From NCBI GenBank assembly GCA_013200995.1, contig CP053688.1:5022001-5086000 (forward strand): 64,000 nucleotides of DNA, written 5' to 3'. Position numbers and translations under genes: made by a program. Positions 45,255-64,000 of this stretch are shown piece by piece. Below the pieces are notes generated by a model. That model saw only the letters and a program-made list of their open reading frames with translations, was not told the DNA's origin and did no database searches. This stretch comes from Arthrobacter citreus. GTDB taxonomy: Bacteria > Bacillota > Bacilli > Bacillales > Bacillaceae_G. Position 1 is the stretch's first letter. Each line of letters begins with the position of its first letter.

Positions 45255-45263
45255 GAGCAAATA

Positions 45264-46319: not shown

Positions 46320-46360
46320 GAAGCTTATAGTTGAAACAATGATCGTATAATCGATTAGAA

Positions 46361-46406: not shown

Positions 46407-46561
46407 TTTGATAGGAAATACTTAATAGAAGAGTAGTCGAAATAACGGGTGGAATGCAATTAAGAAGCCAAAAACTTAAAATAAAAGCCCGCGCACAAAT
46501 ATAATTCAGAATCAGCTAATATTAGTAAAAATGCAATTATAATTAAAATGAATCTAAATGG
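46407..46561. other. intergenic stretch, nothing recognised
   Basis: AT-rich; no coding frame or motif seen. Confidence 0.4.
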
Positions 46562-46617
46562 AAAAAGGGGCCTCCTATTCGCCAGTTATGCTGACTTTTA
46601 GGACTGCCCCTATTTTT
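46562..46617 (-). terminator. terminator of the symporter operon
   Basis: AAAAAGGGGC and GCCCCTATTTTT pair around an inner CCAGT/ACTGG-like stem. In the minus direction it begins at the stop codon of the carrier gene and ends in a T run. Confidence 0.75.
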
Positions 46618-47935: not shown

Positions 47936-47938
47936 TGT

Positions 47939-48637
47939 TTATTTTCCTTTCTCACGATACTCTTTTGGAGTAATGCCCTCAATTTTACGGAACAAAGTAC
48001 TAAAATAATGTTGACTATTAAAGCCTGAGTTTTCTGCAACATCAGATATATTCCAGTTTGAGTTATTTTTTAAGAATCGCTTAGCTGCTTGGATTCTAAA
48101 ATCTATTAAATATTCTGAAAATGAAACACCAACTTCTTCATGAAATTTCCTACTTAAATAAGTATGATTTGTATGTACTTCGCGAGCAACGTCTGAAAGT
48201 GATAGTTTTTCAGCGAAATGATCATGAATATATAAAAGCGTTTGATGGATTAAACTAGAATACTGATTTGATGTGTCGGTTTCACTATATTTTGAGAGAA
48301 CTTTATACAATTCACTTTCAATAACAGGTTTTGTTAAATAATCTAAAACTCCGATTCGGATTGACTGTTGGGCATAATCAAAACTTTGATATGCTGTGAC
48401 CATAATAATATCGACATCTTTATTTTGTGCTCTTAGCTCTTCTCCAAACTCAAGACCAGAACGTCCTGGAAGATTAATGTCTAGAAATGCGATGTTAATT
48501 TTATGATTTTGATTAATTGTAATTGCTTGGCAAGCATCAGCAGCTTTATAGAATTTCCAAAGTGGAAATATATTTTTAATCAAATATTCCATTTGTTCAA
48601 GCTCTAGGGGTTCATCATCTACTAATAAGACATTCAT
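47939..48637 (-). CDS. response regulator with AraC-type DNA-binding domain
   Basis: This 232-residue protein has an N-terminal receiver (VDDEP at 7-10, phospho-acceptor Asp about 53 in FLDINLPGRSG, conserved DYLTKPV) and a C-terminal AraC/XylS domain with two HTHs (LSLSDVAREVHTNHTYLSRKF; NISDVAENSGFNSQHYFSTLFRK). Its start overlaps the kinase stop (ATGA). AraC-type regulators often bind direct repeats about two helical turns apart; three such 21-bp-period repeats occur at 53431, 58210 and 60416, making it the best candidate to bind them. Confidence 0.92.
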   Translation of the reverse strand: MNVLLVDDEPLELEQMEYLIKNIFPLWKFYKAADACQAITINQNHKINIAFLDINLPGRSGLEFGEELRAQNKDVDIIMVTAYQSFDYAQQSIRIGVLDYLTKPVIESELYKVLSKYSETDTSNQYSSLIHQTLLYIHDHFAEKLSLSDVAREVHTNHTYLSRKFHEEVGVSFSEYLIDFRIQAAKRFLKNNSNWNISDVAENSGFNSQHYFSTLFRKIEGITPKEYREKGK

Positions 48638-49401
48638 TTTATAGCTCCCTCCTTTACATTTGAGTCATATATTAGTGGCCAAACGACCTTAACGTTTGTA
48701 CCTAATTCATTTGAGGCAATTAATACATGTCCATTGCTACCAAAATATAGTTTTAGCCTCTTTTTTATATTGTCTAGCCCGTGACCTTCATTATTTGAAA
48801 ATGAGTTTGTCATACCCATTAAGCCATTATCGATTACTTCTAAGCAAACTAGTTCAGAATCTTGATAAAAACGAATATGAAGTAAAGCCTCACCAATTTT
48901 TTTTTCTAAACCATGTTTAAAAGAATTTTCTACTAAGGTTTGCAAAATAAATGGAGGAACTAAAGCATCATATAATTCATTTGGACAATCTAACTGAGTT
49001 TTAAGTCGCTCACCAAACCGTAGAGTTTGTATATCTAAATAATATTGAGTATATTGTATTTCTTGCGCTAGCGGAATTAAGGGCTCTGAAGACTTATATT
49101 TAAATTTTAAAAATTGAGAGAATGTTTCAAGTGCCCTGATTAATTCCGATGTTCGATTTAAACGAGCTAAGCTAAGTATGACATTTAGTGTATTAAACAA
49201 AAAGTGTGGTTGAATTTGCTGATTCAACTTGTTATATTGAGCTTCTTGGAGTGCGTGCTCTAAACGAATTTCTCTATTCTTATTTTCAAGTAAGTCGATC
49301 CTTTTTTCAAAAATAAATAAAAATAATAAAGCAATAGCTCCCATAATAGGAGCTAAAATAAATAGCATAATTAGTAAAGTAAATCCCTCGTAGCTAAGCA
49401 T
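48634..49401 (-). CDS. LytS/YesM-type sensor histidine kinase
   Basis: A 255-residue kinase with one or two N-terminal membrane segments (about 6-33), a coiled linker, the HisK domain with QIQPHFLFNTLN (phospho-acceptor His) and an HATPase with ENSFKHGLEK and GHGLDNIKKRL. It has almost no extracellular part, so the signal may be sensed within the membrane or through a partner such as the co-encoded carrier. ATG 49401 is chosen because GGAGGT sits 4-5 bases upstream; the TTG at 49413 overlaps that SD. Confidence 0.9.
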   Translation of the reverse strand: MLSYEGFTLLIMLFILAPIMGAIALLFLFIFEKRIDLLENKNREIRLEHALQEAQYNKLNQQIQPHFLFNTLNVILSLARLNRTSELIRALETFSQFLKFKYKSSEPLIPLAQEIQYTQYYLDIQTLRFGERLKTQLDCPNELYDALVPPFILQTLVENSFKHGLEKKIGEALLHIRFYQDSELVCLEVIDNGLMGMTNSFSNNEGHGLDNIKKRLKLYFGSNGHVLIASNELGTNVKVVWPLIYDSNVKEGAIK

Positions 49402-49455
49402 GAAAACCTCCAATAGGGCAGGTATAAGGGAATGAGGCTTCCCGTTTTTTTCTTA

Positions 49456-49489
49456 AAATCAAAGAACCCCGATGGGGATTCTTTGATTT
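49456..49489 (-). terminator. terminator of the ABC importer operon
   Basis: A long stem (49456-49470 with 49474-49489, one bulge) with loop GAT lies directly after the last ATPase gene on the minus strand and before the kinase gene. Confidence 0.75.
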
Positions 49490-49499
49490 CATTCCTCAA

Positions 49500-50486
49500 T
49501 TATACTACAATGTGGCAAGCAACCTGATGATTTTGCTCGGATAATTTTAATTCAGGTACTCTTGTTTTACAAATATCGATCGCAAAAGGGCATCTTGTGT
49601 GGAAACGGCAGCCACTTGGGGGATCAATCGGAGAAGGTACGTCTCCTGTTAATATAATTCTTTCTCTTTGATGCACTGGATTTGGAACTGGAATTGCTGA
49701 TAATAGTGCACGTGTATATGGGTGTTGCGGATTGTCAAATATTGATTTTTTATCGGCTATCTCGACTATTTTTCCTAAATACATTACCATCACACGATCT
49801 GAGATATGTCTTACTACACCTAAATCATGCGAGATGAAAAGAAAGGTAAGAGAGAATTTTTTCTGTAATGATTTAAGTAAGTTTAGTACTTGAGCTTGGA
49901 TTGAAACGTCTAACGCAGAAACAGCTTCATCACAAATAATTAGTTTTGGATCGACTGCAAGTGCACGAGCAATTCCGACACGTTGGCGCTGTCCTCCACT
50001 AAATTCATGAGGATAACGCTCCATCGCTTCAGGTCTTAAACCAACATGTTCAAGTAATTCTTCAATTCTAGCTCTACGTTCTTCTTTTGGAACAACATTT
50101 TGAATAGCTAATGCCTCTCCTAAAATTTGTCCAATCGTTTGTCTAGGATTAAGAGAAGCAAATGGATCTTGAAAGATTACTTGTAAATCCTTTCTTATTT
50201 TGCGCATTTCTTTTTTTCCTAAGCTTAATAAATCTTTTTCTTTAAAATGAATGCTTCCACTTGTAGGCTCGTCTAATCTTAAGATCGCTCTACCGGTAGT
50301 AGATTTACCGCAACCGGATTCTCCTACAATGCTTAATGTTTCGCCCTCATAAATATGGAAACTAATATCGTCTACAGCCTTTACATGATTAATTGTTCTT
50401 CCTAAAATGCCACCCTTAATAGGAAAGTATTGTTTTAAATGATCTACATTAAGTAGTATTTTTTTATCCACTAGTTGTAATGCCAT
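49500..50486 (-). CDS. oligopeptide-type ABC importer ATPase (DppF/OppF-like)
   Basis: A 328-residue ATPase: Walker A GESGCGKSTTG, Q-loop VIFQDPFASLNPR, signature FSGGQRQRVGIARAL, Walker B LIICDEAVSALD, H-loop ISHDLGVVRHISD. The C-terminal extension typical of Opp/Dpp ATPases has four Cys (GCRFHTRCPFAIDIC ... ACH), an iron-sulfur or metal motif. Last of four genes; it overlaps the previous one by one base. The name does not prove peptide transport: this family also imports nickel, sugars and other small compounds. Confidence 0.92.
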   Translation of the reverse strand: MALQLVDKKILLNVDHLKQYFPIKGGILGRTINHVKAVDDISFHIYEGETLSIVGESGCGKSTTGRAILRLDEPTSGSIHFKEKDLLSLGKKEMRKIRKDLQVIFQDPFASLNPRQTIGQILGEALAIQNVVPKEERRARIEELLEHVGLRPEAMERYPHEFSGGQRQRVGIARALAVDPKLIICDEAVSALDVSIQAQVLNLLKSLQKKFSLTFLFISHDLGVVRHISDRVMVMYLGKIVEIADKKSIFDNPQHPYTRALLSAIPVPNPVHQRERIILTGDVPSPIDPPSGCRFHTRCPFAIDICKTRVPELKLSEQNHQVACHIVV

Positions 50487-51511
50487 TATTCAATCCCTAC
50501 TTTCTCTTGAAGCGTATCTGTTTCCCATTTTGATGTGTACATCCAACAACTAACTTCCGAATTTTTGTCAATTGTGTTTAAGTCTGGTACTGACGCATGG
50601 CAAATTTCTTTAGCATGTGCACAGCGGGGAGCAAAACTACAGCCTTTTGGCATATTGAATGGGCTCGGTACAGTACCAGGTATCGTAGTTAATTCATCTT
50701 GATCCATATCCAGACGTGGAAGAGAGTTTAATAAACCGATTGTGTATGGATGTTTAGGGCTATTAAATAGTTCTTTTGCTGAAGTATATTCAACAATTCT
50801 TCCGGCGTACATTACAGCCACTCGATCACAAGTCTCATAAACAACACCTAAATCATGCGTGATTAAGATAACGGCTGTACCGAAATCTTTTTGGAGTGAT
50901 TTAATTAATTCCAGAATCTGAGCTTGAATTGTAACATCAAGAGCTGTAGTCGGTTCATCTGCGATTAGCACTTCTGGGTGACAAGCAAGTGCCATTGCAA
51001 TCATAACCCTTTGTCGCATTCCACCACTAAGCTCATGTGGTTCTTGTTTTGCACGTTTTTCAGGAGAGGGGATTCCTACAAGTCGCAGCATTTCAACTGC
51101 TTTATCCCAAGCTTCCTTTTTGTTTAATTTTTGGTGAAGACGAATCGCTTCTGCAATTTGTTCGCCAGCTGAATAAACAGGGTTTAAAGATGTCATTGGC
51201 TCTTGAAAGATCATTGAAATTTCATTACCTCGTATTGAACGCATCTGTTTTTCAGTTTTTGCAAGTAAGTCTTCACCTTTAAAAAGAATACTACCACCAG
51301 CAATCTTTCCTGGAGGAGAGGGGATTAATCGTAATAGGGACAAGGAAGTAATACTCTTACCGCTACCAGACTCTCCTACAATTCCAAGTGTCTCACCTTT
51401 TTTTAAGTTAAAGCTTATTCCATTAACTGCCTTACTAACACCGTCATCTGTATAAAAGTGGGTTTGTAGATTTTTAACCTCAAGAATTGTTTCATCAAAT
51501 TGTTTTTTCAT
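50486..51511 (-). CDS. oligopeptide-type ABC importer ATPase (DppD/OppD-like)
   Basis: A 341-residue ATPase: Walker [13 protein letters not shown]-loop [13 protein letters not shown], signature [15 protein letters not shown], Walker [14 protein letters not shown]-loop [13 protein letters not shown], and a C-terminal Cys-containing extension ([15 protein letters not shown] ... CW). Third gene of the operon; forms the heteromeric ATPase pair with the following gene. Confidence 0.92.
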
Positions 51512-51523
51512 AGTAGGACCTCC

Positions 51524-52444
51524 TTAATTCAAGTCAACTCGTTTATTAAAGTAACGGTAGAGAATATCAACAGCTAGATTCATAAATACGAAGATAATTG
51601 AAGCGATTAATACGCCACCTTGAACCATAGGTAAATCTCTTGTTCTAATTGCATCAACAATTAATCTACCAAGTCCATTAATTGCAAAAACTGACTCGGT
51701 TAAAACGGTACCACCAAGTAATGCACCAAATTGTAGACCAACAACAGTAATAACTGGAATTAATGCATTTTTTAGACCATGTTTGTAAATAATGACATGT
51801 TCCTTTAAACCTTTTGCTCTTGCCGTACGCATATAGTCTTGACGAACAACTTCTAACATACTTGATCTAGTCATTCTAGCTACAATTGCAGCACCACCTG
51901 CACCTAAAGTTAAGGCTGGTAGTACCATATGTTTAAACGTTCCCCAGCCAGCAACTGGAAATATATGAAGATTAACTGAAAAGAAGTAAATCAGCATTAA
52001 ACCAAACCAGAAACTTGGTAAAGAGATTCCTAGTAAAGCAATAATCATAATTGTAATATCAGCTGCAGAATACTGTTTAGTCGCTGATATAATACCTGCT
52101 AGCATACCAAGTACGACTGTAATGAAAATACTAGCCAGTGCAAGTTCAATTGTAATTGGCAAACGAATCATAATCTCATCTAATACTGGACGATTATTTC
52201 GAATAGATTCACCAAAATCACCTTGTAGTACATGAGCAATATAATCGAAATACTGAATAATGACCGGTCGATCAAAGCCAAGTTGATGACGAATCATTTC
52301 GATTGTTTGTTTCGTAGCACCTTCCCCAGCAAGTAGAGTTGCTGGATCACCAGGGACCATCTGCATAATTAAAAAAACGACTAAACTTACACCAATTAAA
52401 ACTGGAATAGTTTGTATAATTCTTCTGACAATAAATAGAAACAT
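51524..52444 (-). CDS. ABC importer permease (DppB-like)
   Basis: A 306-residue permease with six membrane segments. The N-terminal MFLFIVRRIIQTIPVLIGVSL and MVPGDPA segments are family hallmarks, and ARAKGLKEHVIIYKHGLKNALIP is the ATPase-coupling EAA loop. Second gene of the operon after the DppC-like gene, an order reversed from the common B-C order. Confidence 0.92.
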   Translation of the reverse strand: MFLFIVRRIIQTIPVLIGVSLVVFLIMQMVPGDPATLLAGEGATKQTIEMIRHQLGFDRPVIIQYFDYIAHVLQGDFGESIRNNRPVLDEIMIRLPITIELALASIFITVVLGMLAGIISATKQYSAADITIMIIALLGISLPSFWFGLMLIYFFSVNLHIFPVAGWGTFKHMVLPALTLGAGGAAIVARMTRSSMLEVVRQDYMRTARAKGLKEHVIIYKHGLKNALIPVITVVGLQFGALLGGTVLTESVFAINGLGRLIVDAIRTRDLPMVQGGVLIASIIFVFMNLAVDILYRYFNKRVDLN

Positions 52445-52456
52445 ATACTTTCCTCC

Positions 52457-53359
52457 TTATTTTTTCATCCTTGGATCAAGTGCATCTCTTAGCCCATCCC
52501 CGAAAATATTAAATCCTAATACAAGTGTTGAAATCGCGATACCCGGAAATAAGGCAATATGTGGTGCAGTAAATAAATAATCACGTCCACTACTTAACAT
52601 CGCTCCCCATTCTGGAGATGGTGGCTGTGCGCCTAGTCCGAGATATGACAAGCCTGCTGCTGATAGAATAGCTGTAGCAAGTTTTAACGTAGCTTGGACA
52701 ATTATTGGTGAAAGAATATTCGGTAAAATATGTTTGAAAATAATTGTTGCATCAGTTGCACCTAAAGCGCGAATTGCATCGATATATTCAAGTTTTCTGA
52801 CGGATAACGTAGATCCTCTAACGATTCGTGCAAACATTGGAACTGAAAAGATACCGACAGCAACCATAACATTAATTAGACTAGGACCTAGTGCACTAAT
52901 AATTGCAAGTGCCAGTAAAATACCTGGGAATGCAAGTAAAACATCAACAACCCTCATAATGATCGTATCCATCCATTTTCCGTAATAACCTGCGATCAGC
53001 CCAAGAGTGATTCCGAAAACGGCTCCAAATAAGACAGATACAAAACCTACTGAAATTGAAAGACGGCTTCCATATATTATCCTACTTAAAATATCTCTTC
53101 CTTTATCATCAGTTCCCATCCAATGTTCCATCGATGGCGTCTGAAGTTTGTGCATTAAATCAATTGCAAAAGGATCCTTTGGTGAAATTAATGGTGCAAA
53201 AATGGCTACTAAAATATAAAAAAGTACTATATATCCTCCAACTAGTGCCAATTTATTTTTTTTAAACTTCCTATAGAATACTTTCCATCTTTTAAGTTTT
53301 TGAGATTTTCTTTTTTCTAGTTTAATTTCAGTATTACTTAATACTGTCTCTGCTTTCAT
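52457..53359 (-). CDS. ABC importer permease (DppC-like)
   Basis: A 300-residue permease with a cytoplasmic N-terminus, six membrane segments, the typical HWMGTDDKGRDILSRIIYGSR segment after the first one and the EAA loop IRALGATDATIIFKHILPN. ATG 53359 is chosen because GGGGGA lies 8 bases upstream; an in-frame TTG further up lacks an SD. First gene of the importer operon, divergent from binding protein 1 across 211 bp that hold the activator-like repeat. Confidence 0.92.
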   Translation of the reverse strand: MKAETVLSNTEIKLEKRKSQKLKRWKVFYRKFKKNKLALVGGYIVLFYILVAIFAPLISPKDPFAIDLMHKLQTPSMEHWMGTDDKGRDILSRIIYGSRLSISVGFVSVLFGAVFGITLGLIAGYYGKWMDTIIMRVVDVLLAFPGILLALAIISALGPSLINVMVAVGIFSVPMFARIVRGSTLSVRKLEYIDAIRALGATDATIIFKHILPNILSPIIVQATLKLATAILSAAGLSYLGLGAQPPSPEWGAMLSSGRDYLFTAPHIALFPGIAISTLVLGFNIFGDGLRDALDPRMKK

Positions 53360-53430
53360 ATTTCTTCCCCCTTTTCTTTGTTTAAATTTATTCAAAATTG
53401 GAATTGAAGTAAATATAATGCGGAAAAGCA

Positions 53431-53493
53431 GTAAAGATAATTAAAAAACGAGTAAAGATTCTGAAAATATAAAATTTTATTTTTTTTTATAAT
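53431..53493 (+). promoter_or_regulatory. direct-repeat activator site and promoter of binding protein 1
   Basis: GTAAAGAT lies at 53431-53438 and 53452-53459 (21-bp period). TATAAT is at 53488-53493, 36 bp from the start of repeat 2. No good -35 is present. Same geometry as at 58210 and 60416. Confidence 0.8.
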
Positions 53494-53570
53494 TTGATTA
53501 AGCCTAACGTACTCGAATAAATGGTGAACTAGAGAATCATAGGGCAATTAAAAAGAGGGGGAAGAAAACA

Positions 53571-55127
53571 ATGAAGAAAAAAACAGCTGGAGTACTATTT
53601 GCATCATTATTTACAATTTCAACTGTTCTAGCAGGATGTACATCTGACACAACAAGCAGTAGTGCAACAGGAACAAAAGCGAAAGCAGGGGGAACTTTAG
53701 TTGTCGCTAGATTATCCGATGCAACTACATTAGATCCACAATTTATTACTGATATACCATCAGCAAATGTAGTGTACGAAAAGGTTTATGAAACATTAGT
53801 TGAACCAGATAAAAATATGGAGCCCAAGCCTCTTTTAGCAACAGAATGGAAACAAGTAAATAACGTGACTTGGGAATTTAAACTTCGAGAAGGCGTTAAA
53901 TTCCATGATGGTACACCATTTAATGCAGATGCAGTAAAAACTACTTTTGATCGAGTGCTTGATCCAAAAACTGCATCACCACAAGCGGGTAAGTTTGCAA
54001 TGATTAAAGAAGTTAAAGTAGTTAACGACACGACTGTACAATTTATTTTGAAATACCCATACGCACCACTTTTATCAATTTTAATGAGTAGTGAAGGGAG
54101 TATTATTAGTCCAAAATCAATAAAAGATAATAGTGATAAAATTGGACAAAATCCAGTAGGAACTGGTCCATATGTATTTAAATCTTGGAAATCAGGTGAA
54201 GAAATAAAAATTGCAAAAAATAATGACTACTGGGGAAATAAACCTAAGATTGATGGTGTAGTCTTTAAAGTAGTTCCTGAAGATGCTACAAGATTAGCTA
54301 TGATAGAAACTGGTGAAGCGCAAGTAACTGACCAAGTACCAGTAACAGAAATTGATCGAATTGAAGCATCAGACACAATGGACTTATATCGTACAGATGG
54401 ACTAGCTGTTGAATACTTAAGCTTCAATGTTAAGAAAAAGCCGTTTAATGATGTGCGTGTTAGAAAAGCAATTGCACATGCAATTGAAGTAGATTCAATC
54501 ATTAAAGGTGTATATAACGACGTTGGAACAAAAGCGAACTCAACGATGAGTCCGAAAGTATTTGGTTATGATCCTGACATTAAAGGTTATGATTACGATA
54601 TTAATGAATCTAAAAAGCTATTAAAAGAAGCCGGAGTTAAAGATGGACTAACATTTACGCTAACAACTAGTGATCGTAAAGAAAGAATAAATATGGCTGA
54701 AGTAATCCAATCACAATTAAAAGGTATTGGTATCAATGTTAAAATCCAAGTTCTTGAGTACGGAGCTTATATTGATACAATCGCAAAAGGTGAACATCAA
54801 GTTGCAATTGGCGGATGGGGTAATGCTACTGGTGATGGGGACTATAATCAATTTAATTTATTTGATAGTCAATCCCAAGGTGCAGCAGGAAATAGTTCTT
54901 TCTATAGTAACCCAGAAGTAGATAAATTAATTGAATCAGCAAGACAGGAGCCAGATAGCGAAAAACGTAAACAACTATATGCTGATGCACAAAAAATTGA
55001 AAGTGAAGATGTACCATATGTTCCTATTCGTAACTACGAGCATTTAGCAGTTACTAGCTCTTCGGTTAAAGGACTATGGTTAAACCCAGCAAGTTATTTA
55101 ATGCTTGACGATGTAACAGTGAAATAA
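53571..55127 (+). CDS. extracellular solute-binding lipoprotein, family 5 (copy 1)
   Basis: A 518-residue lipoprotein that should capture the substrate and pass it to the DppBC-like permeases. The lipobox is LAGC with Cys 23. A Ser/Thr linker, then GGTLVVARLSDATTLDPQF, and the family signature around LREGVKFHDGTPFNADAVK are visible. It is similar throughout to the second binding protein at 58319. AGAGGGGGAAG precedes the ATG. A terminator after it would make it more abundant than the downstream enzymes. Confidence 0.93.
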   Translation: MKKKTAGVLFASLFTISTVLAGCTSDTTSSSATGTKAKAGGTLVVARLSDATTLDPQFITDIPSANVVYEKVYETLVEPDKNMEPKPLLATEWKQVNNVTWEFKLREGVKFHDGTPFNADAVKTTFDRVLDPKTASPQAGKFAMIKEVKVVNDTTVQFILKYPYAPLLSILMSSEGSIISPKSIKDNSDKIGQNPVGTGPYVFKSWKSGEEIKIAKNNDYWGNKPKIDGVVFKVVPEDATRLAMIETGEAQVTDQVPVTEIDRIEASDTMDLYRTDGLAVEYLSFNVKKKPFNDVRVRKAIAHAIEVDSIIKGVYNDVGTKANSTMSPKVFGYDPDIKGYDYDINESKKLLKEAGVKDGLTFTLTTSDRKERINMAEVIQSQLKGIGINVKIQVLEYGAYIDTIAKGEHQVAIGGWGNATGDGDYNQFNLFDSQSQGAAGNSSFYSNPEVDKLIESARQEPDSEKRKQLYADAQKIESEDVPYVPIRNYEHLAVTSSSVKGLWLNPASYLMLDDVTVK

Positions 55128-55137
55128 GTAATTCCAT

Positions 55138-55173
55138 GAAACAGCATAATTAAATTATGCTGTTTCAGTTTTT
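55138..55173 (+). terminator. hairpin after binding protein 1
   Basis: GAAACAGCATAAT and its complement (55138-55150 with 55154-55166) have a TTTTT tail. Read-through to the amidohydrolase genes is probable as they lack an obvious own promoter. Confidence 0.88.
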
Positions 55174-55204
55174 AAAGAGAAGTTTGTAGGTAGGAGGAGA
55201 AAAT

Positions 55205-56683
55205 ATGATTGATTTGTTATTAATAAATGGCACTATAATCACAATGGATACAGAAAGAAGAATTATCCAAAATGGCTCTGTTGCGATTCATAATGGAAGA
55301 ATTGTGGACATTGATTTGACTGAGAACATGAAAACTAAGTATGAAGCGCATAAAGTAATTGATTGTAGTCATCAATGTATTTTACCAGGGCTAATAGATG
55401 TTCATGGTCATGGCGGTCATTCAATGTTTAAAACAATTGCAATGGAAAATATCGATTTTTGGATGCCAATTATGACGAATACGTATAAACATTTCGTGAC
55501 AGATGATTTTTGGTATTACGAAGGAAAGCTATCAGCTCTTGAACGATTAAAAGCAGGTATTACAACAGGTGTTAGTGTGTTAGGTTCAGTACCAAGATCT
55601 GATGATCCAATATTTGCGATCAACCATGCGAAAGCATACAACGAAGTAGGAGTCCGCGAAGTAGTTTGTACAGGTCCATGTAACCCACCTTGGCCACATT
55701 CATTTAGTAGATGGGTTGACGGGAAAAGAATTGAAAAAGAAGTAACTTACGAAGAAGTTTTAAAAGGAGCAGAAGCGGTTATTGAAGCTTTGAATCATGC
55801 AAATGGAGACAAAACGAGAGCCTTTATAACGCCATTTGTCATTGTAACGTCTGTTGACCCTTCAAATCCAACATCTCCAGATCGACTTTACGGTTTAACT
55901 CAACATGATCTTTACCAAGCGAAAAAAATTAGAGAGATAGCTAGAAAATATAATACAAGAATTCATTCAGATGCATTTGGAGGAATGATTCATTTAGCAA
56001 TTCAAGATAAAGAAAATGCATTATTAGGCCCAGATGTCCATCTTCAGCACTGTCGAGGAATTTCATTCGATGAAGCGAAAATTTTAGCTGAAACTGGAAC
56101 GAATATTAGTGCTTCTCCAGGTTTTGGCCAAGTAAATGCACGTACTCCAATTACAGAATTAATTGAAATGGGAGCAACAGTTGCAATTTCAACTGATGGT
56201 ACTTCCCCTTCAACAAGCTTTGATTTATTCCAAGCAATGAGGAAAACTCAGTTTGTCCATCAGGCTGCACTAAGAGACTATTATTATTTACCGCCTGGAA
56301 AGCTTTTAGAAATGATTACAATTGATGCAGCAAAATGTATCGGTTGGGACGATGAAATTGGCTCACTTGAAATTGGTAAAAAAGCAGATGTCATCACAGT
56401 TAATCTCCACCAACCACATTTGACACCTGAGTTTATGCACGTTCATCGATTGGTTTTTCAAGCAGTCGCAAATGATGTTGATCATGTGATTGTTGATGGA
56501 AAGCTAATTATGGAAGGTAGAAATGTACATACAGTTCATGAAAGTACAGTTTTAAATGAAGCAAATGAAGAAGCATTTGAAACAATTAAACGTGCTGGAC
56601 TAGAAAAGTATATGCAGCCTACAAAGTATTTCTGGGGGCATGCTCGTGCCTATGTTGACGAGATGAGATATGTTGAAAACTAA
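55205..56683 (+). CDS. amidohydrolase family metalloenzyme 1 (TrzA/AtzA/SsnA-like)
   Basis: A 492-residue TIM-barrel metal hydrolase. The small beta domain at both ends is typical (NGTIITMDTERRII at the start, KADVITVN near the end). The first metal motif is PGLIDVHGHGGHS (HxH), followed by RIHSDAFGG (His), VHLQHCRG (His) and AISTDGTSPS (Asp). Such enzymes deaminate or hydrolyse ring C-N bonds in purines, pyrimidines, triazines and cyclic amides. Substrate unknown; encoded behind a binding-protein gene. Confidence 0.88.
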   Translation: MIDLLLINGTIITMDTERRIIQNGSVAIHNGRIVDIDLTENMKTKYEAHKVIDCSHQCILPGLIDVHGHGGHSMFKTIAMENIDFWMPIMTNTYKHFVTDDFWYYEGKLSALERLKAGITTGVSVLGSVPRSDDPIFAINHAKAYNEVGVREVVCTGPCNPPWPHSFSRWVDGKRIEKEVTYEEVLKGAEAVIEALNHANGDKTRAFITPFVIVTSVDPSNPTSPDRLYGLTQHDLYQAKKIREIARKYNTRIHSDAFGGMIHLAIQDKENALLGPDVHLQHCRGISFDEAKILAETGTNISASPGFGQVNARTPITELIEMGATVAISTDGTSPSTSFDLFQAMRKTQFVHQAALRDYYYLPPGKLLEMITIDAAKCIGWDDEIGSLEIGKKADVITVNLHQPHLTPEFMHVHRLVFQAVANDVDHVIVDGKLIMEGRNVHTVHESTVLNEANEEAFETIKRAGLEKYMQPTKYFWGHARAYVDEMRYVEN

Positions 56684-56711
56684 AATAATCTTTTTTTGAA
56701 GGGAGAAAAGA

Positions 56712-58184
56712 ATGAAAACGAAGCTAAAAGGAAGATACGTAATTGGTTTTAATGGAAGTGAACATGTCATATTGGAAGATGCAGAAGTTGTTTATGAAAA
56801 GGACACGATTTTATTTGTTGGAAAAAACTATTTAGATGAAGTAGATCAAGTAATTGACGTAGGAAATGCGATCCTTAGTCCTGGTTTTATTGATTTAAAC
56901 GCTCTAGGTGACATTGATCATGATATTTTGCACTTAGAGGCGAAATCAAATAGACAAAAAAATCTCCTTTGGTCTGAACAATACGTAAAAGAGGGACATC
57001 ATGAACTAATGAGTGAAGAGGAGGAAGCATTTAAATCTTTATATGCTTATTCTCAACTAATCTTAAATGGAATTACTACGGCCATGCCGATTACATCCGT
57101 TTTTTATAAAAATTGGGCTGAAACTTTTGAAGAGTTAGAAGCCGCAGCGAACCATGCGGGAAAACTAGGGTTGAGAATTTATCTTGGACCAAGCTATCAA
57201 GCAGGAATTCGAGTAGTCGAGCCAGATGGAAAGATTAAAATGCATTGGGATGAAAAAGCGGGCGAGGAAGGATTAGACAGAGCGATAAGGTTTTTTGAAA
57301 CCTTCGATGGCGCATTTGACGGGTTAATCCGAGGGATGTTAGCCCCAGAAAGAATTGAAACACAGACTGAAGAAATTTTAATAAAAACAAAATATTACAG
57401 TGAAAAATTAAATGTTCCTATCAAGCTTCATGCTGCGCAAGGAAGTTTTGAGTTTAATACAATTCTAAAAGAACACGGAGTTACACCAATTAAATATTTA
57501 TATAATCTTGGATTTTTAGGTCCAAATACAGGCATTCCACACGCTCATTTTGTATCAGGCTATAGTGGAGCCAATTACAATATTGATAATGATATTTCGC
57601 TTCTGAAAGAAACAAATACTACTGTCATCCATTGTCCCCTTATTATAGGAAGACATGGAGAAGGGCTTGAATCATTTGCAAAATATAGAAAAGAAGGAAT
57701 CAATATTGCATTAGGTACCGACACTTTCCCACCAGACATATTTCAAAATGTACGTACTGGTAGTATGCTTTCAAGATTTGTTGAAAAAGAAGTTGAAGGA
57801 TCTACATACGCTGATTTCTTCAATTCTATTACCTTAGGAGCAGCGGCATTTCTTAATCGGGAAGATTTAGGAAGAATTGCTGTTGGTGCAAAAGCGGATA
57901 TTATTGCGATTGATTTAGATGGATTTCACATGGGCGTTATGGATGATCCAATTCGAACAATGTTTGTAAGTGGTTCAGGCAGAGATGTAAAACTATCAAT
58001 TATAAATGGAAAAATCGTGATGGAAGATCAAGTGATTCCTAATCTTGATATGGAAGATTTAAAGCAAAAAGCACAATTCTATTTTAATAAGATGAGAAAA
58101 GGTTATATGGAAAGAGATTACGAGCAACTTCCTGAAAATGAACTATTTCCATCATCATTTAAATTAGTCAATTCACTAGAGTAG
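56712..58184 (+). CDS. amidohydrolase-like protein 2, HxH motif missing
   Basis: A 490-residue amidohydrolase-superfamily protein. The normal PGFIDxHxH is replaced by SPGFIDLNALGDIDHD, so the first two metal His are absent at their usual place. Later ligand positions look kept: PIKLHAAQG (His), GIPHAHFVSGY (His) and ALGTDTFPPD (Asp). KADIIAIDLDG and IINGKIV mark the C-terminal beta domain. It lies 28 bp after amidohydrolase 1, so they share a transcript. It may be a mononuclear variant or use other ligands such as the His in DIDHD. Confidence 0.85.
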   Translation: MKTKLKGRYVIGFNGSEHVILEDAEVVYEKDTILFVGKNYLDEVDQVIDVGNAILSPGFIDLNALGDIDHDILHLEAKSNRQKNLLWSEQYVKEGHHELMSEEEEAFKSLYAYSQLILNGITTAMPITSVFYKNWAETFEELEAAANHAGKLGLRIYLGPSYQAGIRVVEPDGKIKMHWDEKAGEEGLDRAIRFFETFDGAFDGLIRGMLAPERIETQTEEILIKTKYYSEKLNVPIKLHAAQGSFEFNTILKEHGVTPIKYLYNLGFLGPNTGIPHAHFVSGYSGANYNIDNDISLLKETNTTVIHCPLIIGRHGEGLESFAKYRKEGINIALGTDTFPPDIFQNVRTGSMLSRFVEKEVEGSTYADFFNSITLGAAAFLNREDLGRIAVGAKADIIAIDLDGFHMGVMDDPIRTMFVSGSGRDVKLSIINGKIVMEDQVIPNLDMEDLKQKAQFYFNKMRKGYMERDYEQLPENELFPSSFKLVNSLE

Positions 58185-58209
58185 GCAGAAGCAAAAAAAT
58201 GAAAAACTA

Positions 58210-58272
58210 GTAAAGATACTGAAAAAACAGGTAAAGATATTCAAAAATAATTATCAGAATATTTTATATAAT
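58210..58272 (+). promoter_or_regulatory. direct-repeat activator site and promoter of binding protein 2
   Basis: GTAAAGAT lies at 58210-58217 and 58231-58238 (21-bp period). TATAAT is at 58267-58272, 36 bp from the start of repeat 2. Confidence 0.8.
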
Positions 58273-58318
58273 TAGATAAATATTTGTAAGACAAACTAAT
58301 ACTTGGGAGGCAATGCCA

Positions 58319-59884
58319 TTGAAATTAAAATCGGAATTCGGTAAATTTTTTCTAGTATTATTTTCTGCAGTGACAATTACAGGATGTTCATCTAATCAAG
58401 ATGTTGGGACAAAAACAAATGGACAAGCACATGATTCAAATGGAGGAAATACGCTAGTAATTGCTCGGCAGTCTGATGCAGAAAATTTAGATCAGCAATT
58501 TATGTCTACTATAAATGCTGCGAGTATTACTCATCATAAAATTTATGAAGGTCTTGTACAACGTGATAGTAACAATGAAATTCAACCATTGTTAGCAGAA
58601 TCTTGGAATCAAATCGACGATACAACATGGGAATTTAAACTAAGGCATGGTGTAAAATTCCACGATGGCACTCCATTTAATGCAGAAGCAGTAAAAAAGA
58701 CGTTTGATCGCTTATTAGATCCAAAAGTAGCATCGCCAAGAGCGGTTGTATTCAAAATGGTAAAAGAAGTGAAAGTAGTTGATGAATATACAGTTCAATT
58801 TATTTTAAGTGAGCCTTTTTCACCACTTCTTTCGATTTTAGCAAACCATGAAGGTGGCATTATAAGTCCTAAAACGATTGATAAATATGGAAAAAATATT
58901 ATCCAAGAGCCAAACGGAACCGGTCCTTTTAAATTTGAATCATGGTCTCCTGGTCAAGAAATTACATTAGTTAAAAATGAAGATTACTGGGGCACTAAAC
59001 CGAAAATCGATAAAGTTGAATTCAAAGTAGTTCCAGAAGACTCAACAAGAATTTCCATGATTGAAACAGGAGAAGCTCAAATTGCTGAACCACTCCCAGT
59101 AGCAGTAATGGACCAAGTTGAATCATCTTCTGCAATGGAAGTCTATCGAAGTGAAGGATTCGGTACAGAATACATCGGTTTCAATGTAACGAAAAAACCA
59201 TTTAATGATGTACGTGTTCGTAAAGCAATTGCTCATGCTGTTGAAATGGATTCAATTATTAAAGGGGTATTTAATAACGTCGGTAAACAAGCGAACTCCG
59301 CAATGGGATCAAAAGTATTCGGATACGATGATCAATTAAAAGCCTATGATTACAATTTAAAAGAAGCTAAAAAACTATTAACAGAAGCAGGCTACCCAAA
59401 TGGATTTGAAGCCACAATTCTTACAATGGATAGCAAAGAACGAGTAAATTTAGCAGAAGTACTTCAATCACAATTAAAAGGAATCGGCATTAATTTAAAA
59501 GTACAAGTGATGGAATACGGTTCATTCGTTGAAAAAGTAAATAAAGGTCAATCACAAATGTTTATCATTAGCTGGAGAAACGCAACAGGAGATGCTGATT
59601 ACAATCAGTACAACCTATTCCACTCAGACTCACGCGGAGCGGCTGGAAACACATTCTTCTATAGCAATCCAAAAGTAGATGACCTAATTAATGAAGGTCG
59701 AAAAGAAAAAGACGAAACAAAACGCAAAGAAATCTATGCAAAAGCGCAAGAAATCGAAATGGATGACGCTCCATATATTCCAGTAAGAGTAATCGAAAAT
59801 GTCGCAGCAATCTCAAAAAATGTAAAAGGATTCTCAATTAGTCCTTCAGGTTATTTAGAGATTAATGACGTGACGATTAAGTAA
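58319..59884 (+). CDS. extracellular solute-binding lipoprotein, family 5 (copy 2)
   Basis: A 521-residue lipoprotein with lipobox TITGC (Cys 23), closely related to binding protein 1 over its whole length (shared KFHDGTPFNAEAVK-type signature, RVRKAIAHAVEMDSIIKGV, LQSQLKGIGI). No permease genes accompany it, so it probably shares the DppBCDF-like importer. Start: GGGAGG (58305-58310) is only 2 bases from ATG 58313 but 8 from the in-frame TTG 58319, which also gives a neat signal peptide; TTG is used here. Confidence 0.92.
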   Translation: MKLKSEFGKFFLVLFSAVTITGCSSNQDVGTKTNGQAHDSNGGNTLVIARQSDAENLDQQFMSTINAASITHHKIYEGLVQRDSNNEIQPLLAESWNQIDDTTWEFKLRHGVKFHDGTPFNAEAVKKTFDRLLDPKVASPRAVVFKMVKEVKVVDEYTVQFILSEPFSPLLSILANHEGGIISPKTIDKYGKNIIQEPNGTGPFKFESWSPGQEITLVKNEDYWGTKPKIDKVEFKVVPEDSTRISMIETGEAQIAEPLPVAVMDQVESSSAMEVYRSEGFGTEYIGFNVTKKPFNDVRVRKAIAHAVEMDSIIKGVFNNVGKQANSAMGSKVFGYDDQLKAYDYNLKEAKKLLTEAGYPNGFEATILTMDSKERVNLAEVLQSQLKGIGINLKVQVMEYGSFVEKVNKGQSQMFIISWRNATGDADYNQYNLFHSDSRGAAGNTFFYSNPKVDDLINEGRKEKDETKRKEIYAKAQEIEMDDAPYIPVRVIENVAAISKNVKGFSISPSGYLEINDVTIK

Positions 59885-59902
59885 TAATTTTTGTTTATAT
59901 GA

Positions 59903-59944
59903 AAAGAGGGGATCCCAATAAATTATGGGATTCCCTCTTTTTTT
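59903..59944 (+). terminator. terminator after binding protein 2
   Basis: The stem AAAGAGGGGATCCCA/TGGGATTCCCTCTTT is followed by a T run. Confidence 0.9.
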
Positions 59945-59997
59945 ATGGAAACAGTAGTTTTAGGAATATCTGAGAATTCAAATAAGGAAGGAAGAGC

Positions 59998-60066
59998 TGC
60001 AAATAAAAAAGGTGAATCGCAAATAAACAACAGACTGCAAATAAAATTCCAATAATCGCAAATAAG
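59998..60066. repeat. spaced GCAAATAA array
   Basis: TGCAAATAAA, CGCAAATAAA, TGCAAATAAA and CGCAAATAAG have GC at 59999, 60019, 60037 and 60058, i.e. 20, 18 and 21 bp apart. A fifth copy is at 60231-60240. They are not in a gene. Confidence 0.6.
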
Positions 60067-60278
60067 ATTGAGTATTACCTATACAAGGTAGGGGATAATG
60101 CAATGAAACTTCCATAAATTTATTGATTCTTAAATGAAAAAATAGCAAATCTGTTTCAATCTGTGCCAAAACGAATAAAAAATAGATAGAACAATGTAAT
60201 TATCTATGGAAAAAGATCAATAAAATCAACTGCAAATAAAAAGACCATCAGATATACCCCACTCCTAATATATTTGAG

Positions 60279-60330
60279 GAGGAGGCAAGCTCGCTCCCCT
60301 GAAAGAGAGTATCCTGTAGTGGAAATCAAC
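60279..60330. repeat. partial reverse copy of the GC-rich interspersed repeat
   Basis: The reverse complement of 60311-60330 is identical to 4484-4503, and the following bases (down to 60279) align loosely with the same repeat. The far half is missing. Confidence 0.65.
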
Positions 60331-60415
60331 CTGAGTTTACTTATTTAATGGAAAATTCTTAGTTCAACTGAGTAATAAGTTCCTACTCTACATTTTAATA
60401 AATATAAACCAACTA

Positions 60416-60478
60416 GTAAAAATACTTTAAAAATATGTAAACATACTAAAATCAAAATATTCTAAACAGATTTATAAT
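60416..60478 (+). promoter_or_regulatory. direct-repeat activator site and promoter of the tandem deaminase genes
   Basis: GTAAAAAT (60416-60423) and GTAAACAT (60437-60444) have a 21-bp period. TATAAT is at 60473-60478, 36 bp from the start of repeat 2. The repeats are less perfect than at the other two sites. Confidence 0.7.
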
Positions 60479-60522
60479 GGAAATAGAATCAAAATTTAAA
60501 GTGGGATGGAAGGGTGAGTAGA

Positions 60523-61770
60523 TTGTCAAAAGTATATTGGTTAACGAATGTGAGTCTAGAAAATGGTTTTACTTATAATGACAATGAAGTAATTAACGGA
60601 ACGGCAACTGGAAAGTACAATGTGAAAATTGAAAATGAAAAAATCGCTGCTATTCAATTAGCTAGTGAAGTAATAACTGATCAATTACCGCAATATGATG
60701 TGCAAGGCCTTCTAATGGTTCCTTCATTTAAAGAGATGCATATTCATATTGATAAAACTTACTATGGTGGACCTTGGAAAGCGTGTATGCCTGCAACTAA
60801 TGGTGTGAGAACACGTATTGAAGAAGAACAAATTTTATTACCTAAACTATTACCAACTGCTAAAGATAGAGCAGAAAAGATGCTTGATTTATTACTAAGT
60901 CACGGTGCGACGCATATTCGTACACATTGTAATATTGACCCGGTTATCGGATTAAAAAACTTAGAAGCTACTTTACAGGCTTTAGAAGGATATAAAGATA
61001 AATTAACACACGAAATTGTTGCATTTCCACAGCATGGACTTTTAAGAAGTAACTCTGTTGAACTAGTTAGAGAAGCGATGAAATATGGAGCAAATCTAGT
61101 AGGTGGAGTTGACCCCGCTTCAATCGATGAAAATATTGAGCGCTCTCTTGAGACGATTATGGACATAGCAGTTGAATCAAATTCTGATATCGATGTTCAT
61201 TTACATGACCCAGATCATCTTGGATTATTTACAATGCAAAGATTAGCAACATTAACTGAAAAAGCAGGATGGCAAGGAAGAGTTACAGTGAGTCATGCGA
61301 GTGGTTTAGCAGACCTTTCTGTTCCAGATGCTACTGCGATTGCTGAGAGATTTGCTGATTTAGGAATTTCGATTACTTCGACTGTACCAATTTTTAGAAC
61401 AATTCCAATTCCTTTACTAAGTGAAAAAGGCGTAAAAGTAGAATTAGGAAATGACAGCATTACAGATCATTGGTCTCCATTTGGAATAGGCGATAATCTT
61501 GAAAAAGTTGGACGACTTGCTGAACGTTTTAGATTTATTGAAGAAAAATCACTTCATAATAGTCTTGGATTTATTACAGGAGGCGTGACTCCTTTAAATA
61601 ATGAAGGGGAAAGAGCATGGCCGAATGTTGGTGATGAAGCAAGCATCGTACTTGTAGAAGCTACTTGCAGTGCAGAAGCTGTAGCGAGACGTGCCAAACG
61701 TGCTGCTGTTATTTTTAAAGGTAATGTTGTAAGTGGTTCAATTTCTAATCTTGAATCAACAACAGTTTAA
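60523..61770 (+). CDS. cytosine deaminase/AtzC-like amidohydrolase, tandem copy 1
   Basis: A 415-residue metal hydrolase resembling cytosine deaminase and N-isopropylammelide hydrolase. Metal ligands: EMHIHIDK (HxH), VHLHDPDH (His), VTVSHAS (His) and ELGNDSITDHW (Asp). VAFPQHGLL is a substrate-side segment of this group. The TTG at 60523 is chosen since the two following paralogues start at the equivalent place (MNQSYWLTN, MISSYWLKN) and AAGGGTGA precedes it; GTG 60514 overlaps that SD. First of three tandem genes under an activator-type promoter. Confidence 0.88.
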   Translation: MSKVYWLTNVSLENGFTYNDNEVINGTATGKYNVKIENEKIAAIQLASEVITDQLPQYDVQGLLMVPSFKEMHIHIDKTYYGGPWKACMPATNGVRTRIEEEQILLPKLLPTAKDRAEKMLDLLLSHGATHIRTHCNIDPVIGLKNLEATLQALEGYKDKLTHEIVAFPQHGLLRSNSVELVREAMKYGANLVGGVDPASIDENIERSLETIMDIAVESNSDIDVHLHDPDHLGLFTMQRLATLTEKAGWQGRVTVSHASGLADLSVPDATAIAERFADLGISITSTVPIFRTIPIPLLSEKGVKVELGNDSITDHWSPFGIGDNLEKVGRLAERFRFIEEKSLHNSLGFITGGVTPLNNEGERAWPNVGDEASIVLVEATCSAEAVARRAKRAAVIFKGNVVSGSISNLESTTV

Positions 61771-61793
61771 GCTTGACTAAAGAGAGTGATGAG

Positions 61794-63035
61794 ATGAATC
61801 AATCATATTGGCTTACGAATGTAAAACTTGATAGCGGTTTTGTTATTGAAAATGGAAGAGTCGAAAGTACTGAGACTACACTTTATAATTTACTGATTAC
61901 TGATGGGAAAATTGAAAGATTACAATTGGCTGATTTTCCATTGCAAACGGATCTTCCTGTGCAGGATGCAAAGAATTTACTTGCTCTACCTGCCTTTAAA
62001 GAAATGCATAATCATTTGGATAAAACTTATCTTGGATTACCTTGGAAGGCTTGTATTCCTGCTGCAAATTTAGTTGAGAGATTAAATTTGGAAGCTGCGG
62101 AATTAGTTGAATTAGCGGAGACGGGGCAGCATCGTGCTGAACATATGCTTCATCTACTATTAAAAGGTGGAGCAACTCATGTTCGAACACATGTAAACGT
62201 TGATCCGTATATCGGCTTGAAAAATTTAGAAGAAATTCAAAAAGCACTTTTTACGTATAAGGATAAAATGACACACGAGATTGTTGCATTTCCTCAACAT
62301 GGATTACTTCGAACAAATAGTATGTCATTCATGAAAACAGCGATGAGAGAGGGAGCGACCATTGTCGGTGGGCTAGATCCTGGTGGCATTGATCAAAATA
62401 TTGAGCTTTCATTATTTGAAATGGTTGATCTTGCGGTACAGTTTGATGCTGATATAGATATTCATATACATGACCCAGGTCATCTTGGTTTTTATACAAT
62501 ACAAAAACTAACTTCATTTATCGAACAAGCTGGTTGGCATAATCGCGTAGCCGTAAGTCATGCATTTGCACTTGGTGATGTACCGATAAATGAATCTACT
62601 GAAATGGCTAGTAAGCTAGCAAGCTTAGGTGTGTCGATAATGTCGACTGTGCCGATTAACAGAGTAATGCCTCCAGTTGATCTACTTCATTCAAAAGGTG
62701 TACATGTAGCTTTAGGTTGTGATGGTTTCTATGATTCTTGGTCACCACATGGAACTGGAGATATGTTAGAAAAAGCTGGCCGTCTAGCTGAGAGATACAA
62801 TTGGAAAGATGAGTACGGGCTATCTCAAACATTGCAATTTATTACTGGTGGCTTAAAGACTCTTGATGAAAAAGGAAATCAATTGTGGCCAAAGGTTGGA
62901 GATGAAGCAAATTTAGTTTTAGTAGATGCATCATGTTCTGCTGAAGCTGTAGCAAGACGAGCAAAACGTGCTGCTGTAATTGCGAATGGAAATATTGTTT
63001 ACGGTGGACTGAATTATGAATCTGCTTTGAAGTAA
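61794..63035 (+). CDS. cytosine deaminase/AtzC-like amidohydrolase, tandem copy 2
   Basis: A 413-residue paralogue of the previous gene with the same ligand set: EMHNHLDKTY, IHIHDPGH, VAVSHAF and ALGCDGFYDSW. HxH is kept as H-N-H. The C-terminus VDASCSAEAVARRAKRAAVI is almost shared with copy 1. ATG 61794 gives an N-terminus parallel to the other copies. The gap to copy 1 is 23 bp. Differences near the active site (GCDGFYDSWSPHG here, GNDSITDHWSPFG in copy 1) suggest different substrates. Confidence 0.88.
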   Translation: MNQSYWLTNVKLDSGFVIENGRVESTETTLYNLLITDGKIERLQLADFPLQTDLPVQDAKNLLALPAFKEMHNHLDKTYLGLPWKACIPAANLVERLNLEAAELVELAETGQHRAEHMLHLLLKGGATHVRTHVNVDPYIGLKNLEEIQKALFTYKDKMTHEIVAFPQHGLLRTNSMSFMKTAMREGATIVGGLDPGGIDQNIELSLFEMVDLAVQFDADIDIHIHDPGHLGFYTIQKLTSFIEQAGWHNRVAVSHAFALGDVPINESTEMASKLASLGVSIMSTVPINRVMPPVDLLHSKGVHVALGCDGFYDSWSPHGTGDMLEKAGRLAERYNWKDEYGLSQTLQFITGGLKTLDEKGNQLWPKVGDEANLVLVDASCSAEAVARRAKRAAVIANGNIVYGGLNYESALK

Positions 63036-63065
63036 ATAGAAGAATTACAAGAAGGAGTGAACTTC

Positions 63066-64000
63066 ATGATATCTAGCTATTGGTTAAAGAATGCTCGATT
63101 AGAAATTGGCTACGAAAAAGAAAACGATAGAGTAGTAGGTACTGCTACTGAATTATTTCATCTATTAATTGAAAAAGGAAAAATTACTAAAATAACAAAA
63201 GATGAAGCGTCGATTACAAATGAATTTACAGTTCGTGATGCAGGTGGATTACTTGTTTTACCATCTTTTATTGAAAAGCATGTACATCTTGATAAGACAT
63301 TAATGGGAGATGTGTGGAGAGCTTGCACTCCAACTTCTAGTGTAATTGAACGATTTGAATATGAAAAAATGGCTTTACCGACGATTGCGTCAAGTACGAA
63401 GGAGCGCGCAGAGGCTTTACTTGAAATCCTTTTAGCTTCTGGTTCTACACATGTGAGAACACATGTTGATATTTATCCAGAAGTTGGGATCAGAAATTTA
63501 GAACAAGTTGAACAAGCATTAACTAATTATTCTAACCGTCTTAGCTCCGAAGTTGTTGCATTTGCTCAGCATGGTTTATTAAGATCCAATGCTTTCAATT
63601 ATGTGAGAGAAGCATTAAGAAATGGAGCAGGAATTGTTGGTTCAGTTGACCCTGCAGTTGTAGACCAAAATATTGAAGAGTCGCTATATCAACTTTATAA
63701 TTTAGCGGTTGAAGCTGATGCGGACATCGATATTCATTTACATGATCCAGGTCATCTAGGTGCATTTACGATGAAACGTATTGTAGAATTTACGAAGCAA
63801 GCAGGTTGGGAAGGCAGAGTAGCAATCAGCCATGCATTTGGAATAGGTGATGTTCCAAGACAGGAAGCATACGAACTTGCAAATAGCTTTAGAGACGCAG
63901 GAATTTCGATTGTCACAAGTGTACCAATTAATAGACAAATGCCTCCAGTTGATTTATTAAATGAACGAGGTGTGGAAGTAGCAGTTGGTAATGATAATAT
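63066..64000 (+). CDS. cytosine deaminase/AtzC-like amidohydrolase, tandem copy 3 (cut by window end)
   Basis: The frame is open from ATG 63066 (AAGGAG 8 bases upstream) to the window end, 311 codons with no stop. Ligands are EKHVHLDKTL (HxH), IHLHDPGH, VAISHAF and, at the very edge, VAVGNDN (Asp). VVAFAQHGLL and VGSVDPA are shared with its neighbours. About 100 residues should lie beyond the window. Third tandem paralogue, 30 bp after copy 2. Confidence 0.88.
   Translation, partial: MISSYWLKNARLEIGYEKENDRVVGTATELFHLLIEKGKITKITKDEASITNEFTVRDAGGLLVLPSFIEKHVHLDKTLMGDVWRACTPTSSVIERFEYEKMALPTIASSTKERAEALLEILLASGSTHVRTHVDIYPEVGIRNLEQVEQALTNYSNRLSSEVVAFAQHGLLRSNAFNYVREALRNGAGIVGSVDPAVVDQNIEESLYQLYNLAVEADADIDIHLHDPGHLGAFTMKRIVEFTKQAGWEGRVAISHAFGIGDVPRQEAYELANSFRDAGISIVTSVPINRQMPPVDLLNERGVEVAVGNDN

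Follow-up and report, generated by a model that had tools for sequence, protein, structure and literature searches.

A stretch of 64 kb from the 5.47-Mb genome of Arthrobacter citreus (the window; positions 5,022,001-5,086,000 of the largest contig) carries three promoters built to one plan, in which two direct repeats with a period of 21 bp are followed by a TATAAT hexamer that begins exactly 36 bp after the start of repeat 2. The promoters stand before genes for two solute-binding proteins (SBP1 and SBP2), two amidohydrolases (AH1 and AH2) and tandem deaminases (DA1 and DA2). Sequence comparison makes it very likely that the three sites form a local regulon, activated by a response regulator encoded nearby that joins a receiver (REC) domain to an AraC-type DNA-binding domain. 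This reading is carried by the sites themselves, by their constant geometry and its conservation in relatives, and by their linkage to the regulator gene.

Architecture of the three promoters

A preliminary description of this DNA had placed the repeat pairs at 53431/53452, 58210/58231 and 60416/60437 and the TATAAT hexamers at 53488, 58267 and 60473; the sequences, the 21-bp period and the 36-bp distance proved exact at all three places. The repeat unit, however, had been taken as 8 bp, which is too short: it spans about 18 bp and consists of GTAAAGAT and, some 11 bp further on, a second box rich in A. The 12 sites that trained the weight matrix used below show GTAAANAT, then a T at the third base, and the A-rich box 11-13 bases from the start of the unit. 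AraC-type DNA-binding domains hold two helix-turn-helix (HTH) motifs, and the natural reading is that each 18-bp unit would accommodate one such domain.

As had been stated earlier, a proper -35 element is missing. With a 17-bp spacer the hexamers are AAATAT, AAAATA and AATCAA, which agree with TTGACA at 0, 2 and 1 of 6 positions, and across spacers of 15-19 bp the best matches are 2, 2 and 3 of 6 for sites 1, 2 and 3. Since the unit is about 18 bp long, the second half of repeat 2 extends into the -35 region, which it reaches without any -35 hexamer being there. The preliminary description, with its 8-bp unit, had missed this. The repeats two helical turns apart, the fixed distance to the -10 box, the -35 region reached by repeat 2 and the weak or absent -35 element at all three promoters are the features of a class II-type (AraC-like) layout.

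Specificity of the pattern within the genome

The pattern GTAAANAT-N13-GTAAANAT matched its own genome five times, against two matches in the reversed control, and three of the five are the window sites. A longer pattern, GTAAANATNNNNNAAANNNNNGTAAANATNNTNAAA, drawn from the three window sites themselves, had three exact matches in the 5.47-Mb genome, all of them these sites. No match carried one or two mismatches, and 17 carried three; its reversed control gave 19 matches in all. It had been argued beforehand that frequent occurrence at unrelated promoters would speak against a regulon; from the scan with the longer pattern, the motif is therefore not frequent at unrelated promoters of its own genome.

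Within the window, four repeat pairs were found at up to 2 mismatches in 16, three with TATAAT at +36 and the fourth, at 20846, without it. One hundred simulated windows (first-order Markov, both strands) held a mean of 0.15 pairs and not one with TATAAT at +36, so the trio exceeds chance. Taken together, the genome pattern scans, the reversed controls and the simulated windows led us to reject a chance origin of the sites. An RNA element was also considered and rejected, because an Rfam scan of 44000-64000 returned nothing at gathering thresholds and the repeats lie upstream of the -10 box. An automatic promoter scan of 47850-53600 gave 16 promoter-like sites, against 22.2 in shuffled sequences.

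Conservation of the site geometry in relatives

Twelve genomes of the genus were searched, and one stretch was taken from each of the ten, other than the window's own, that carried the regulator. Each of these stretches has sites 1 and 2, and nine also have site 3, before which the remaining one breaks off. By eye, the sequence upstream of repeat 1 of site 3 is highly variable across the genus, and the repeats, their spacing and the -10 box are constant.

A wider set comprised the best 80 of 129 loci around regulator homologues (97 to 53% identical), from genera that include Gottfriedia, Peribacillus, Neobacillus, Cytobacillus, Rossellomorea, Sporosarcina, Psychrobacillus, Paenibacillus and Brevibacillus. 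The nearest named relatives of the response regulator include those of Gottfriedia strains (84-97% identity), which suggests that the window comes from a Gottfriedia species. A homologue of dppC, the gene divergent from site 1, was present in 75 of the 80 loci, and the region upstream of this divergent gene was scored with the repeat period left free between 17 and 25 and the -10 distance between 30 and 42. The period came out as 21 bp in 74 loci and 22 bp in one, and the distance from repeat 2 to the -10 box as 36 bp in 65, 35 in nine and 37 in one. All 75 loci outscored the other strand or the reversed sequence (lowest score 17.6, against a highest of 14.8), and GTAAA opens repeat 2 in 68 of them. 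The earlier proposal that the three promoters belong to one regulon is supported by the longer pattern having no other match in the genome at up to two mismatches and by the near-invariant period.

The weight matrix, applied at fixed spacing with a threshold of 25 bits, found 146 sites in the 80 loci and none in reversed sequence across all 91 stretches scanned. With the window's own proteins as the only queries, similarity to a solute-binding protein (98), a deaminase (19) or an amidohydrolase (10) begins at a distance of 28-277 nt from 127 of the 146 sites, and for 117 of them this distance is no more than 130 nt. Ten of the remaining sites stand at the end of a locus with no gene in view, and nine are further away than 300 nt.

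Linkage to the response regulator

An order-wide sample of 397 genomes from 135 genera was searched for the strict pattern GTMAANAT-N13-GTAAANAT-N27/28-TATAAT and for the regulator (E <=1e-45). The pattern gave 50 sites in 33 genomes of 14 genera and none in the reversed control, and the regulator was found in 56 genomes. Both occurred in 31 genomes, the pattern only in 2, the regulator only in 25 and neither in 339; the regulator is thus present in 31 of the 33 pattern genomes versus 25 of the 364 others (Fisher p = 1.9e-28, uncorrected for kinship). All 24 genomes with a regulator at least 55% identical to that of the window carry the pattern. The linkage is also physical, as the regulator gene is no more than 15 kb away from 46 of the 50 sites (G299 included by coordinate). 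One site that resembles site 3 (G015) lies on another contig, as does a site in G287, found 5' of a MctP-like fragment (48 bits against a cut-off of 625) and an open reading frame (ORF) of the cytidine-deaminase family.

The regulator matches Pfam PF00072 (1.2e-22) and PF12833 (2.8e-21). Residues D7, D8, D53 and K103 are invariant among 29 aligned regulators, and both HTH motifs are well conserved. With a receiver, an AraC-type HTH, an adjacent PF06580 kinase and conserved phospho-acceptor and active-site residues, it has the characters of the YesN-type REC-AraC regulators. The preliminary description had already singled out the local AraC-type response regulator as the best candidate "ligand", which should read binder, and both the co-occurrence and the distances support this neighbouring protein as much the best candidate.

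Two loci hold a second response regulator, 68% identical to that of the window and with no kinase match adjoining (L044, 9983-10717; L098, 10001-10696). Its gene diverges from an AH2 match, where the repeats are variants, GTATGAAT or GTAATAAT; L085 and L094 are similar.

Third box and the divergent dpp genes

A third box, GTAAATAT, which had escaped the preliminary description, precedes site 1 at 53409 and faces a divergent operon. On the minus strand, the order from site 1 is four ABC transporter genes, the kinase, the response regulator and an SLC5-like protein. Of the transporter genes, dppC was named by Pfam and dppF, dppD and dppB from ORFs by eye and from tblastn position; for dppC the start at 53359 was picked by eye on the basis of a ribosome site, whereas 53395 is the start in the ORF list. 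Of the 75 loci, 65 have a GTAAA box exactly 22 bp upstream of repeat 1, and where offsets of 15 to 29 were allowed it was found at 23 once, at 27 seven times and at 28 once. By eye, no third box was seen at window sites 2 and 3. Many of 26 representative loci have, on the dpp strand, a TTTGATAAT-like box some 20 bp past the third box, but a standard -35/-10 pair for dpp was not found by eye. The third box may bring the dpp promoter into the same array, as activation or as repression.

Proposed mechanism and alternative explanations

We propose that the kinase (48634-49413) would phosphorylate the response regulator (47939-48637), two molecules of which would sit side by side on one face of the DNA, on the two 18-bp units. 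Within each unit one HTH would read GTAAAGAT and the other the A-rich box. The downstream molecule would reach the -35 region and recruit RNA polymerase to TATAAT promoters that have no -35 element. SBP1-AH1-AH2, SBP2 and the deaminase operon would then be induced together, and by this co-induction the cell would take up and hydrolyse an N-heterocyclic or amide compound; the third box may couple the ABC transporter (dpp) to the same regulon.

Several observations weigh against this proposal. Because the genomes are related, the counts do not represent independent events. Training of the matrix used 12 sites hand-picked from the order-wide pattern, three of them the window's own, and the genes beside its sites were likewise assigned with queries from the window. 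Three of the 80 loci (L060, L069 and L081) have no site of at least 25 bits at fixed spacing, and an above-threshold site occurs in one (L153) of eight stretches with a diverged regulator. The strict pattern is missing from 25 of the 56 regulator genomes, all 25 with regulators at no more than 54% identity. G121 and G250, finally, carry the pattern without the regulator: by eye, the site of G121 is at the 5' end of an unrelated ORF, and that of G250 precedes a binding-protein-like ORF, which may mean that sites of this kind also serve another regulator.

This last case would fit a different binder, which could be some other AraC-family protein or, like CodY, a global regulator, with the response regulator merely nearby, an explanation that we regard as improbable. 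CodY-like boxes (judged against the CodY consensus) overlap or follow repeat 2 at 53455-53469 (3 mismatches) and 58249-58263 (2 mismatches); the 64,000-nt window holds 19 such positions, and a box with 3 mismatches is found around repeat 2 in 37 of the 75 loci. These boxes also count against the proposal above, as they may mark another input. However, a global regulator is not expected to have three sites in one region or to co-occur with one response regulator. CodY alone was rejected, because site 3 has no such box (best 5 mismatches) and the offset of the box is unequal between sites 1 and 2. Still less credible is that phased A-tracts in the repeats serve as UP elements or curve the DNA and work without a specific protein. 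The units are indeed A-rich and, by eye, phased roughly with the helix, in a window of 66% A+T; yet even far relatives retain the G and T of the first two positions (68 of 75 loci have GTAAA), when A-tracts need neither, and an AT-rich genome shows the pattern nowhere else. A-tracts alone were rejected on account of the conserved GT and this genome-wide rarity.

The regulator might also bind and repress, or act both ways, the third box then blocking the dpp promoter on the divergent side. The third box sits at the expected -35 region of that promoter (the dpp -10 box being a guess) and is present in those 65 of 75 loci, but the three forward promoters have their sites 5' of the -10 box and no -35 element, which is the usual layout for an activator. 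In Caldicellulosiruptor, 3 of 5 AraC-family two-component regulators are reported to have tandem repeats upstream of promoters and are read as activators (PMC8579813). We therefore consider repression unlikely and favour activation by the REC-AraC response regulator.

Candidate target genes and substrate class

Pfam and NCBIfam scans agree with the earlier assignment of the sites to binding protein 1, binding protein 2 and the tandem deaminases: site 1 precedes SBP1-AH1-AH2, site 2 precedes SBP2 and site 3 precedes the deaminase-like run (Table 1). Other genes stand behind some of the sites in relatives, as seen in six of the nine that are further than 300 nt from a matched gene. In Cytobacillus (L073) a site precedes an allantoinase (TIGR03178, 617 bits against 358), and distant sites precede family-1 binding proteins in Brevibacillus (L039, by Pfam) and in L045, L048 and L051, by likeness of the first residues. 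A distant site near an ankyrin/TPR ORF (L044) is perhaps due to chance. In Rossellomorea (L057-L059 and L061) the sites are on the other strand, away from the divergent position.

The closest solved relatives of DA1 are N-isopropylammelide isopropylaminohydrolases, followed by cytosine deaminases, and that of AH1 is atrazine chlorohydrolase. The enzyme relatives and the gene neighbours together point to N-heterocycle or amide compounds as the probable substrate class, perhaps as a nitrogen source. A permease-like ORF, perhaps of NCS2 type by eye, begins at window coordinate 65581, past the window end. On the far side of the region, an ORF at 45453-46319 has, by eye, a peptidoglycan-binding-like start followed by long repeats, Gly-rich and of Gln-Pro-Gly-Lys.

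Table 1. Sites, promoter elements and genes of the putative regulon and its surroundings (window coordinates).
Feature	Position	Strand	Remarks
Site 1, two 18-bp units	53431-53448 and 53452-53469 (whole 53431..53469)	+	21-bp period; matrix 53.2 bits
Site 2, two 18-bp units	58210..58248	+	21-bp period; matrix 44.3 bits
Site 3, two 18-bp units, GTAAAAAT and GTAAACAT	60416..60454	+	21-bp period; matrix 46.0 bits
TATAAT, -10 box of SBP1 promoter	53488..53493	+	36 bp from start of repeat 2
TATAAT, -10 box of SBP2 promoter	58267..58272	+	36 bp from start of repeat 2
TATAAT, -10 box of deaminase promoter	60473..60478	+	36 bp from start of repeat 2
Third box	53409..53416	+	22 bp 5' of site 1 repeat 1; faces divergent dpp operon
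Response regulator, REC plus AraC-type DNA-binding domain	47939..48637	-	Proposed activator; Pfam PF00072, PF12833, PF00165
Histidine kinase (PF06580)	48634..49413	-	3.1e-21; one hydrophobic N-terminal segment (by eye)
SLC5/SSS-fold protein	46610..47935	-	Directly downstream of response regulator; proposed sensor or co-sensor
dppF, dppD, dppB, dppC-type ABC transporter genes	49500..53359	-	Divergent from SBP1; possible fourth regulated unit
SBP1, family-5 solute-binding protein	53571..55127	+	PF00496
AH1, amidohydrolase	55205..56683	+	Family scans, solved-structure relatives
AH2, amidohydrolase, PRK06151 subfamily	56712..58184	+	656 bits against cut-off of 416
SBP2, family-5 solute-binding protein	58313..59884	+	PF00496
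DA1, deaminase-like amidohydrolase, PRK06846 subfamily	60514..61770	+	611 bits against cut-off of 447
DA2, tandem relative of DA1, PRK06846 subfamily	61773..63035	+	581 bits against cut-off of 447
Third tandem deaminase-like ORF	63057..64000, runs past window end (L158 57-1307)	+	By eye

The kinase and its SLC5-fold neighbour

The Pfam scan found no sensor domain in the kinase, PF06580 being its sole domain. In 27 sequences its hydrophobic N-terminal segment holds an invariant AP..GA stretch, after which the kinase domain follows. The product of the gene behind the regulator matches SSF weakly by sequence (23 bits against 22.8); its AlphaFold model, made with 27 sequences, has a mean pLDDT of 79 and a pTM of 0.82, and the best Foldseek rows, to DUR3, CHT1, SiaT and SGLT2, have TMq values of 0.73-0.79. 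By eye, the sodium-site residues vary across the alignment. When this alignment was used as query (E 1e-15) in the 56 regulator-positive genomes, exactly one match was found in 42, and in all 42 it is the next gene downstream of the regulator and shares its strand, with 9-77 nt between the matches.

Because of this consistent place behind the regulator, and by analogy to the fused CbrA-type receptors, it is plausible that the SLC5-fold protein acts as a sensor or co-sensor; the simple alternative is a plain transporter of the inducer. More specifically, a split transceptor can be envisaged, in which the stand-alone SLC5-fold protein would sense a nutrient in the membrane and drive the sensor-less PF06580-type kinase via the single hydrophobic segment, the answer being given through the 21-bp promoters. 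We put this forward tentatively and would rate its chances as somewhat below even.

Fourteen of the 56 regulator genomes have no recognisable SLC5 match, which weighs against a split transceptor. In the eight of the 14 that were examined, an ORF of 348-489 amino acids stands behind the histidine kinase-response regulator pair, and in the seven of these diverged loci that were scanned (all but L155) no Pfam or NCBIfam family was found for it above cut-off; the genes beyond the third gene have changed in the diverged loci. Nor did the libraries applied to three members of the SLC5-fold alignment itself (L056, L071 and L084) yield a family above cut-off. In L150, L151, L152, L155, L156 and L157 the third gene is an ORF of 429-489 amino acids, followed by a formamidase/acetamidase-like ORF, an identity taken from Pfam on L150 only (PF03069).

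Relation to known systems and significance

AraC at araBAD I1-I2 shares the direct repeats 21 bp, or two helical turns, apart, with the downstream one reaching into the -35 region; the window regulator differs in having a receiver instead of a sugar-binding domain and in the sequence of its site. In Caldicellulosiruptor bescii, AraC-type two-component regulators are found beside transporter genes, and the tandem repeats upstream of promoters mentioned above are read as sites of activators in 3 of 5 cases; the targets there concern carbohydrates, whereas those of the window are amidohydrolases and family-5 binding proteins (PMC8579813).

CbrA of CbrA/CbrB and CrbS of CrbS/CrbR are SLC5 histidine kinases (PMC7096432, PMC9100948). 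In them, as in the window, a protein of SLC5 fold is tied to a histidine kinase; they differ in that the window SLC5-fold protein is encoded by a separate gene, also in 30 listed loci, and is not fused to the kinase, which is of the PF06580 type. A Pfam scan at E 0.001 showed no STAC domain (SSF and His_kinase were the only matches), the presence of the STAC model in the library being unchecked. The kinase DcuS carries its own sensor domains, and the transporter DctA lies outside the SLC5 family, whereas the window kinase has no recognised sensor domain and its putative partner is SLC5-fold. In DctA-DcuS the transporter is a co-sensor partner of the kinase (PMC8307970).

Among titles and abstract starts in one paper library, we found no description of this regulon or of a stand-alone SLC5 partner of such a kinase. 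The regulon is new in its membership, while the principle of paired direct repeats, an AraC-type activator and a promoter without -35 is known; the separated SLC5-fold partner is the one open novelty. The putative regulon is sharply defined, is found in Bacillus relatives, Paenibacillus and Brevibacillus, and covers amidohydrolases, deaminase-like enzymes and binding proteins. Its site can be used to find more members, such as the Cytobacillus allantoinase, and hence to guess the substrate. Should the SLC5-fold protein prove to be the sensor, it would be the separated counterpart of the fused CbrA-type receptors, and these loci would offer a tractable system for learning how a transporter fold signals to a kinase.

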